From: Armatimonadota bacterium
GTDB lineage: Bacteria > Armatimonadota > UBA5829 > DSUL01
Reading direction: 5' to 3'
DNA: 64,000 nucleotides
NCBI GenBank assembly: GCA_025998755.1
Contig: AP024674.1
Span: 2,496,162-2,560,161 of the forward strand
Below, in pieces: positions 18,185 through 47,278 of this stretch. Position 1 is the first letter of the stretch. Each line of letters opens with the position of its first letter. A program made the position numbers and the translations under genes. The notes below the pieces were generated by a model that saw only the letters and a list, made by a program, of their open reading frames with translations, was not told the DNA's origin and searched no databases.

Positions 18185-18308
18185 GACAACCCTTCCCCAA
18201 GCGTTCCCGGATACTTCCCGGCTGACCGGCCAGTTCCAGCCATGCTTTATAGCTTGGCGGCGTGGTTCCTGCACGGCAACGCCGGCGAGTTCTGCTCGCA
18301 ATATGCGC

Positions 18309-18340
18309 CGGAGCCCGCCACCAAACGGCGACGGGCTCCG
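18309..18340. terminator. Hairpin between flgM-like gene and parA
   Basis: A perfect 9-bp outer stem CGGAGCCCG/CGGGCTCCG (18309-18317 with 18332-18340) with partial inner pairing. It likely separates the anti-sigma transcript from parAB; there is no T-run. Confidence 0.45.
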
Positions 18341-18371: not shown

Positions 18372-18674
18372 CTAGCGGATCCGGTCCGCCCGCATGCGGC
18401 GCAGCATCATCTCTCCCACCTCGCTCGGATCCACGCGATACTCTCCTCGCTCCAGCTGGGCCTTGATGTCGGCCACCAGATCCTCCCGCACGTCAGGAAC
18501 CTCTTCCAGGGCCTTCATTGCCACCTCGATGGCTTCTTCCCGTGAAGTCTTCGGACGGCCCTGACGCATCTCCCGATGAAGCGACGCCCGGAACTCCTCC
18601 GGAAGGATCTTCCCCTTTGCTGCCGCCTGCGCGTGCGTCCCTGCTTTTCCCGATTCGAACTCCGAAATCTTCAT
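18372..18674 (-). CDS. FlgM-like anti-sigma-28 factor, riboswitch-controlled
   Basis: 100 residues. The C-terminal section VREDLVADIKAQLERGEYRV followed by DPSEVGEMMLRRM is the sigma-28-binding signature of FlgM (charged helix, G-x-Y-x-V-D turn, second helix). The N-terminal half is hydrophilic and probably unfolded, as in FlgM. ATG 18674 follows GGAGG. It lies outside the flagellar cluster, which has its own flgM at 45409. Its leader carries a c-di-GMP-I riboswitch and a sigma-28-like promoter, so it should restrain late flagellar genes in response to c-di-GMP. A non-flagellar partner sigma factor cannot be excluded. Confidence 0.75.
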   Translation of the reverse strand: MKISEFESGKAGTHAQAAAKGKILPEEFRASLHREMRQGRPKTSREEAIEVAMKALEEVPDVREDLVADIKAQLERGEYRVDPSEVGEMMLRRMRADRIR

Positions 18675-18748
18675 CGTTTCCTGCCTCCAGTCCGCCTCCG
18701 CCCCGAAAACGAAAAACGGCAAACGTCTTCGATGGCTTTGGCGGGACC

Positions 18749-18838
18749 ACTTCGGCAACCGGGCTGTCTTGCCGCATTTTGCGGTTTAGACCCCTGGCTT
18801 TGCGTCCTCCCCTTTCGAAGAGTTTGCCCTTATCGAGA
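18749..18838 (-). promoter_or_regulatory. Cyclic di-GMP-I (GEMM-I) riboswitch aptamer
   Basis: Read on the minus strand, the leader has every landmark of the GEMM-I aptamer in order. AAGGGCAAAC gives the P1 5' strand. CUCUUC-GAAA-GGGGAG is a 6-bp hairpin with a GAAA tetraloop. GGACGCAAAGCC is the invariant joining segment. GUCUAAACCGC-AAAAU-GCGGCAAGAC is the second arm with its tetraloop-receptor side. CAGCCCGGUUGCCGAAG contains the P1 3' strand, where GGCAA pairs with UUGCC. It sits 75 bases before the FlgM-like start codon and begins about 20 bases after the predicted transcription start. A copy of the P1 strand, GUUUGCCG, followed by a T-run (18724-18705), may form the expression platform. 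Confidence 0.92.
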
Positions 18839-18863
18839 GTTCCTCTACAGCTTGTCCATCCGG

Positions 18864-18892
18864 TTATTCGGCTCTTCGGACCGGAATCTTTA
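18864..18892 (-). promoter_or_regulatory. Sigma-28-like promoter with phased A-tracts
   Basis: On the minus strand TAAA (18892-18889), 16-base spacer, GCCGAATAA (18872-18864), against the sigma-28 consensus TAAA-N15-GCCGATAA. Just upstream lies a tandem GAAAAAAGTT pair (18903-18922). The 10-bp-phased A6 tracts at about -49 and -59 would bend DNA or act as an UP element. The predicted start near 18857 fits the riboswitch 5' end. Confidence 0.6.
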
Positions 18893-19148
18893 GCCCCTCG
18901 GAGAAAAAAGTTGAAAAAAGTTCTCCTGATATGGAATGCCCTTCCTCGCCTGGATTCTACCATGCCTCCAATCGTACACGTGTTCGACTCAACAAGTCAC
19001 TCAGGGTCTGAGTCTGGGGCAAAACTGCGAACAGGTAGCAATGGCCATGTGAGAAGTCCCCATGCTATACTGCCGCCGTGCGCCTTTTTTCACAGGCCCG
19101 GAGATCCTGCGTGCAAGGCAAGCGCATCCGGAGGCCCGGCGCTCTTTT
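18893..19148. promoter_or_regulatory. Divergent intergenic region, flgM-like/atp operon
   Basis: No gene is seen here. It holds the tandem A-tract repeat (18903-18922), the palindrome ACTCAG-GGT-CTGAGT (18999-19013) and an extended -10 promoter TGC-TATACT (19063-19071) that probably drives the ATP synthase operon from about 19078. GGAGG at 19130-19134 precedes the first atp gene. Confidence 0.5.
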
Positions 19149-45408: not shown

Positions 45409-45693
45409 TCACTCCTTGCAGCAAAGCGACGAAAGCAGACGATCGGCCAACCTGCCGGGATCCCGTTCCAGGGAGCCTTCCCGGAGCTTGCGCGCCGCCT
45501 CGGCCACCCGGTCTTCACGCACCTCGGGAGCAGCCTTCGCCGCTCGAACGCCCGCCGCCACCTCGCTGGCCTTGCGGCTGACATCCACCGTGTCCGCGCC
45601 GTGGACCTCCGGCTCATCAGCCGGAGCCACCGGCTGCACTTTCGGCAGCCCGATCCCGACGATCTTGTTGATCGAAGCGTTGGATATGTTCAT
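45409..45693 (-). CDS. flgM: Anti-sigma-28 factor FlgM (cluster copy)
   Basis: 94 residues. The N-terminal MNISNASINKIVGIG and DTVDVSRKASEV match the FlgM start, and VREDRVAEAARKLREGSLER followed by DPGRLADRLLSSL matches the sigma-28-binding C terminus, though the G-x-Y-x-V-D turn is changed to G-S-L-E-R-D. It sits between flgJ and flgN, the usual place. ATGA overlap with flgJ. A second FlgM-like protein at 18372 has the better-conserved turn. Confidence 0.85.
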   Translation of the reverse strand: MNISNASINKIVGIGLPKVQPVAPADEPEVHGADTVDVSRKASEVAAGVRAAKAAPEVREDRVAEAARKLREGSLERDPGRLADRLLSSLCCKE

Positions 45694-47235: not shown

Positions 47236-47278
47236 GCCCCCCCAGTTCTAAGAGCTTATCAGGAGGACGAAAGAGACA

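Follow-up and report, generated by a model that had tools for sequence, protein, structure and literature searches.

Which programme would c-di-GMP control by acting on a gene for an anti-sigma factor, and in which direction? The question is raised by a locus in the 64-kb stretch of DNA analysed here (the window), which belongs to the genome G000, a single 3.29 Mb contig with three c-di-GMP-I aptamers and two FlgM genes. In this locus, a c-di-GMP-I riboswitch aptamer stands between a sigma-28/WhiG-type promoter and a gene of the FlgM family, termed flgM-r.

The riboswitch-flgM unit and its conservation

The features of the unit, in the direction of transcription, and the second FlgM gene of the window are as follows.

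18901..18920, minus strand: A/T tracts CTTTTTTCAACTTTTTTCTC, 5' of the promoter (sequence; A/T-rich here in many relatives)
18864..18892, minus strand: sigma-28/WhiG-type promoter (TAAA at 18892-18889, N16, GCCGAATAA at 18872-18864)
18751..18838, minus strand: c-di-GMP-I (GEMM-I) riboswitch aptamer, full length (RF01051, 90.4 bits)
18811..18828, minus strand: aptamer 5' strand GGCAAACTCTTCGAAAGG, also the 5' arm of the predicted alternative terminator stem (MFE folds, duplex energies)
18718..18735, minus strand: 3' arm of that stem, CCATCGAAGACGTTTGCC (folds, duplex energies, arm/T-run pattern)
18712..18717, minus strand: T-run GTTTTT directly after the 3' arm; predicted intrinsic terminator in the leader (sequence)
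18684..18688, minus strand: Shine-Dalgarno sequence GGAGG of flgM-r (sequence)
18372..18674, minus strand: flgM-r, the FlgM-family anti-sigma paralogue behind the riboswitch, with 100 codons and a stop codon (Pfam FlgM, 44.8 bits; tree clade 96/96, 33 rows)
18308..18340, minus strand: hairpin-like repeat CGGAGCCCGTCGCCGTTTGGTGGCGGGCTCCGG after flgM-r (sequence)
45409..45693, minus strand: canonical FlgM paralogue within flgI-flgJ-flgM-flgN-flgK, outside the riboswitch unit

The complete GEMM-I aptamer claimed in the earlier note was recovered with Infernal: cmscan of the 64 kb gave RF01051 at 18751-18838(-) with 90.4 bits against a gathering score of 35 (E 1.2e-16), taking in all 87 model positions (1-87), and this is the sole Rfam match within the window. 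The gap between the aptamer and the flgM-r gene measures 77 nt. The specificity base is a G (GGCAAAC), which we take to be the equivalent of G20 of Vc2; a G at this position selects c-di-GMP over cGAMP. Because of this base, cGAMP was rejected as the ligand, and the aptamer sequence points to c-di-GMP instead. GGCAAAC is found in nearly all flgM leaders, with GGCACGA in G038 and G051.

The product of the 100-aa reading frame 18375-18674(-) matches Pfam FlgM (PF04316) with 44.8 bits (cut-off 25), as had been proposed from its sequence, and no other Pfam family passes its cut-off with this protein. The cut-off of the NCBIfam FlgM equivalog TIGR03824 is missed (36.1 versus 40.75). Judged by these profiles, FlgM-r is a member of the FlgM family, though it is not called a flagellar FlgM equivalog. 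A phmmer search against the PDB gave no usable FlgM match, and a search of the genome contigs with the single FlgM-r protein gave no match. It is indeed a second FlgM: the canonical one is found at 45409-45693(-) in the flagellar run flgI-flgJ-flgM-flgN-flgK, of which FlgM and FlgK were confirmed by Pfam. The transcript of flgM-r would carry this one gene and probably ends at the hairpin-like repeat CGGAGCCCGTCGCCGTTTGGTGGCGGGCTCCGG. Downstream of the gene, in the same orientation, are parA-parB-like genes, and the atp operon is divergent from it (all named by eye); the synteny of the unit with parAB seems to be old. A parA-like gene also adjoins the riboswitch-flgM unit in G024 (L186), which belongs to another family.

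The promoter is a more qualified matter. TAAA and GCCGAATAA are present, as the earlier note had it, but the window copy is degraded: compared with the phylum consensus CCCTAAAG-N15-GCCGATAAT, it has one extra -10 base and altered spacing, and a matrix derived from the flgM promoters of 28 relatives scores it 7.9, rank 3 on both strands of the 64 kb. The copy of G001 is also weaker than the consensus of the relatives. These show a near-perfect CCCTAAAG-N15-GCCGATAAT at the same position (in summary form TAAAG-N15-CCGATAAT); with G000-G003 left out, 28 leaders have at least 12 of the 17 consensus bases, the spacer being 15 in 23 of them and 14 in 5, and about 28 of 32 leaders have CCCTAAAG-N14/15-(G)CCRATAAT shortly 5' of their aptamer. 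The promoters of the relatives thereby have the consensus of flagellar/WhiG promoters, TAAA / GCCGATAA (PMC8325347). Set against TAAA-N15-GCCGATAA, the window promoter deviates in its -10 element and spacing, whereas the orthologous promoters match closely. The A/T tracts upstream, likewise pointed out before, are real in the sequence and form a possible UP element. The best sigma-28-type site of the window is located at 47238(-), GGCTAAAG-N15-GCCGTTTTT, approximately 30 nt before flgI-flgJ-flgM-flgN-flgK. In G043 (L072) and G056 (L242), FlgM-like genes follow a sigma-28-type promoter with no aptamer in between, an order that suggests promoter autoregulation without a riboswitch.

By the coordinates of RF01051 and PF04316 matches, the unit from aptamer to flgM occurs in 33 of 61 Armatimonadota genomes. 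In 32 of them, the aptamer lies directly before the FlgM gene on the same strand; in the 33rd, G015, the unit is split by a contig end and is visible in L025. Since the unit recurs in this manner, its arrangement in the window is not due to chance, and the comparison of related genomes shows it conserved together with promoter, order, and spacing. G003 has kept the FlgM-r gene and lost the aptamer. When 84,980 species were scanned for a sigma-28-type -10 element before a c-di-GMP-I aptamer, 17 of the 55 matches had FlgM closely downstream, and those of the 17 with a named phylum are all Armatimonadota. Desulfobacterota (L079 and others), Bacillota, and further groups likewise have c-di-GMP-I aptamers preceded by a sigma-28-type -10 element, the gene downstream being mostly one other than flgM.

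The probable partner sigma factor

The earlier note had c-di-GMP setting the dose of FlgM and, thereby, tying the choice between sessile and motile life directly to late flagellar genes. Its first half stands insofar as the riboswitch precedes a FlgM-family gene and presumably sets the dose; the direct flagellar link is unsupported in the class of G000, where FlgM-r tracks a standalone sigma, persists without FlhA in three genomes, and coexists with a separate FlgM in the flagellar operon. G000 contains two sigmas above the FliA/WhiG cut-off. One is the flagellar sigma, in the flagellar cluster beside an flhF-like gene and flhA, and the other stands alone (C1:2955513-2956184), adjoining rlmN-like and peptidyl-prolyl isomerase-like genes. 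The flagellar sigma, at C1:3071082-3071747, is the predicted partner of the canonical FlgM. In a tree of 70 FliA/WhiG-type sigmas, the flagellum-linked group b (beside FlhA) is set apart from the standalone clade a, which also takes in the sigmas of those other classes that have the riboswitch unit. The FlgM tree, of only 100 columns, places the riboswitch FlgMs in one clade (96/96) and the flagellar-operon FlgMs outside.

Because the genomes compared are related and not independent, the p-values of the co-occurrence counts overstate the association: FlgM-r and sigma-a are both present in 32 genomes, FlgM-r only in 2, sigma-a only in 7, and neither in 20 (p 2e-8); the counts for FlgM-r and FlhA are 29/5/8/19 (p 1e-5); and among the genomes of G000's class without FlhA, FlgM-r and sigma-a are both found in 4 and neither in 5 (p 0.008). 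Of the two FlgM-r genomes without sigma-a, one is 69% complete and one has a broken sigma frame. The flagella-less G004, G020, and G024 (no FlhA) have kept the riboswitch, FlgM-r, the promoter, and one sigma. As FlgM-r is kept with a lone standalone sigma in these genomes, the standalone sigma is the likely partner in G000's class. On the basis of this co-inheritance, the partner would most likely be a WhiG-like sigma, and the programme shut by c-di-GMP via FlgM-r in this class is probably not the flagellum.

Two other assignments have to be weighed. FlgM-r might inhibit both sigmas, so that c-di-GMP damps flagellar and non-flagellar programmes together, a view that overlaps with the preferred one and retains some plausibility without being favoured. 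Both sigmas belong to one family, whose promoter consensus is probably common to them, as for WhiG and flagellar sigmas in general (PMC8325347), and the flagellar and standalone sigmas probably read the same promoter; however, the two FlgM clades parallel the two sigma clades, which suggests specialisation. Somewhat less likely still is an inhibition of the flagellar FliA, by which c-di-GMP would directly shut late flagellar genes. This would fit the FlgM family membership and the sigma-28-type promoter, the flagellated nature of G000 (with FlhA, and with flgH to flgK inside the window), its sigma-28-type promoters before cheW and an MCP-like gene, and the lack of any FlgM besides the riboswitch one in several other classes with one sigma and a flagellum. 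Yet flagellar operons hold the separate FlgM clade, and FlgM-r is retained where the standalone sigma is the only one and the flagellum is missing. A flagellar role of the riboswitch FlgM is possible in flagellated genomes of other classes with a single sigma and a single FlgM, namely G030, G044, G057, G060, G052, G038, and G051. For G000's class, the standalone sigma is the partner considered in the following.

The expression platform and the predicted direction of the switch

In 22 of 22 flgM leaders (G000's class and G046), a GTTTGCC-like arm and then a T-run come downstream of the aptamer, a combination seen in 0 of 15 c-di-GMP-I leaders that belong to other genes of the phylum. The pairing partner of this arm is, in all 22, the 5' strand GGCAAACTCTTCGAAAG of the aptamer itself. 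Unconstrained MFE folds of the leaders, cut at the T-run, contain the terminator stem in 22 of 22 cases, and 69-95% of the 17-nt strand is then base-paired with the arm. In most leaders, the duplex energy is better than for the majority of dinucleotide-shuffled versions of the downstream region, the shuffle p-values being weak for the single leaders G006, G002, and G005. At the decision point, the terminator fold lies by a median of 13 kcal/mol below the imposed aptamer fold, a rough figure because the imposed fold is imperfect for several leaders. Swapping arms between leaders revealed no extra co-evolution (p 0.30), a test without power since the 5' arm is nearly invariant. Because aptamer and terminator are mutually exclusive, the folds predict an ON switch for these leaders—more c-di-GMP would give more FlgM. 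A c-di-GMP-I platform with a terminator built from the aptamer's own 5' strand appears to be new. Several c-di-GMP-I leaders of genes other than flgM (L003, L010, L014) contain a downstream complement of the aptamer 3' strand (CAGCCTGGC-like), in some before T-runs, and may represent a different platform.

In an OFF switch, c-di-GMP would lower FlgM-r and sigma activity would rise with c-di-GMP. Such c-di-GMP-I switches exist, as exemplified by Cd1 of C. difficile (PMC9262584), but this direction is improbable for leaders in which, in all 22 cases, the terminator is built from the 5' strand of the aptamer and cannot form alongside the folded aptamer. A relic aptamer, or one that acts on some other gene downstream, with an accidental link to FlgM, is barely tenable: G003 does keep the gene without an aptamer, but the unit is common to over half of the genomes compared (33/61) and its order, spacing, and platform are conserved.

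The preferred reading has its basis in the sequence, that is, in the aptamer, the FlgM family, the promoter conservation, the terminator complementarity, and the co-inheritance with the standalone sigma; from these, we infer ligand binding, switch direction, partner, regulon, and cellular outcome. Herein, the riboswitch would be a transcriptional ON switch of FlgM-r, which would sequester a FliA/WhiG-family sigma, in G000's class most likely the standalone one, and this is held with fairly good confidence. Without c-di-GMP, the aptamer 5' strand would pair with the arm ending in GTTTGCC just before the T-run, and this stem and the T-run would act as an intrinsic terminator that leaves flgM-r untranscribed. 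With c-di-GMP bound, the aptamer would hold its 5' strand, the terminator would be blocked, and FlgM-r would be made. Its target in G000's class would be the WhiG-like sigma rather than the FliA beside flhF/flhA, and high c-di-GMP would shut the sigma regulon. Since the same promoter type precedes flgM-r, the sigma would feed its own inhibitor, gated by c-di-GMP. The feedback loop proposed earlier is, thus, supported, as a sigma-28-type promoter before an anti-sigma gene implies negative feedback.

Related systems and candidate target genes

In the FlgM-FliA checkpoint of E. coli and Salmonella, the block by FlgM is lifted when the protein is exported through the flagellum, and flgM is also read from a sigma-28 promoter. 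The Armatimonadota unit resembles it in having an anti-sigma-28 of the FlgM family whose gene stands behind a sigma-28-type promoter; it differs in that the synthesis of FlgM-r is predicted to be gated by c-di-GMP and that the gene persists without a flagellum. In RsiG-(c-di-GMP)2-WhiG of Streptomyces and Rubrobacter, c-di-GMP arms an anti-sigma against a FliA/WhiG-family sigma, and the pair was described in 2021 as unique among sigma/anti-sigma pairs in being a target of c-di-GMP (PMC8325347). Common to both systems would be the restraint of such a sigma by c-di-GMP through an anti-sigma, the promoter TAAA/GCCGATAA, and predicted targets that include c-di-GMP turnover genes and surface structures (PMC8325347). 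However, RsiG itself binds c-di-GMP, through the E(X)3S(X)2R(X)3Q(X)3D motifs of its coiled coil (PMC8325347), whereas the Armatimonadota unit is predicted to sense it by the mRNA leader and its anti-sigma belongs to the FlgM family. If true, the unit would be a phylum-wide RNA-level counterpart of RsiG-WhiG, and the same second messenger would be tied twice to the same sigma family, at the protein and the RNA level.

Cd1 of C. difficile is likewise a c-di-GMP-I riboswitch, and there, too, high c-di-GMP lowers a sigma-28-type programme (PMC9262584). It is, however, an OFF switch on the flagellar (flgB) operon itself (PMC5386303) as opposed to a predicted ON switch on an anti-sigma gene. The nearest described platform is the GEMM-I riboswitch of Geobacter pilM, a transcriptional ON switch with cGAMP as its ligand and mutually exclusive aptamer and terminator (PMC9262584). 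Its terminator uses the aptamer 3' strand (A with T and H; PMC9262584), whereas in the 22 flgM leaders the 5' strand would be used; if true, the c-di-GMP-I expression platforms gain one of this latter kind. A literature search for a c-di-GMP riboswitch with flgM, an anti-sigma, or Armatimonadetes, with subscription papers mostly outside its scope, gave no described case, and the aptamer-flgM arrangement is probably novel. Aptamer and protein belong to known families; their combination and the likely target appear new. The unit offers a direct test of the role of the sigma-28 family in bacteria without flagella.

Candidate targets were collected with a strict promoter pattern (at most two mismatches) and its reversed form as the control; the list is exploratory, and any single site may have arisen by chance. 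The search was confined to strict patterns because the loose pattern TAAAG-N-GCCGA was no commoner in G000 than its reversed control (17 versus 29). The three flagella-less sigma-a genomes show 24 sites versus 6 of the reversed pattern (a count that includes the rsbW-like sites dismissed below), and four sigma-less relatives show 4 versus 6 (p 0.04 for the comparison). In the former, the promoter stands before flgM-r and elsewhere. Sites in front of rsbW-like genes (G017, G018, G020, and G024) fall within the coding frame of the gene before and were dismissed as coincidences of coding sequence.

Glycosyltransferases follow intergenic sites in G004 and G010 and are 40% identical over their full length (Pfam). 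GGDEF proteins of similar architecture follow sites in G011 and G024, with 42% identity over 446 aa (G011 by Pfam). Further genes behind sites encode an RR/HD-GYP-like protein in G020 and sugar-nucleotide transferase-like and csrA-like proteins in G024 (all named by eye), an ABC ATPase in G020 and G019 (Pfam), and a pilin-like protein in G006 (pilin motif by Pfam). In G000, sites precede cheW and a UDP-glucose/GDP-mannose dehydrogenase gene (both Pfam); the flagellar FliA may be the sigma that reads the sites of cheW and the MCP-like gene. The dehydrogenase promoter, TAAAG-N-GCCGATAAT, lies just before its gene (L131, C1:876243+) and possibly links a sigma-28-family factor to polysaccharide.

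GGDEF/HD-GYP-like relatives stand behind sigma-28-type promoters in one flagellated and one flagella-less genome (L273 in G011 and L306 in G024). Together with the riboswitch, such genes under such promoters would form a closed feedback loop. The whole reading, in which the sigma drives the gene of its own inhibitor and, in some relatives, genes for enzymes of c-di-GMP synthesis or breakdown, would amount to a double feedback loop and is slightly favoured. Sigma-28-type promoters were also seen before formate-tetrahydrofolate ligase-like genes (L015, L267 in G006, and L296 in G004). In G006, a c-di-GMP-I-GGC aptamer (RF03167) with a sigma-28-type promoter of its own is located approximately 450 bases upstream of such a gene.
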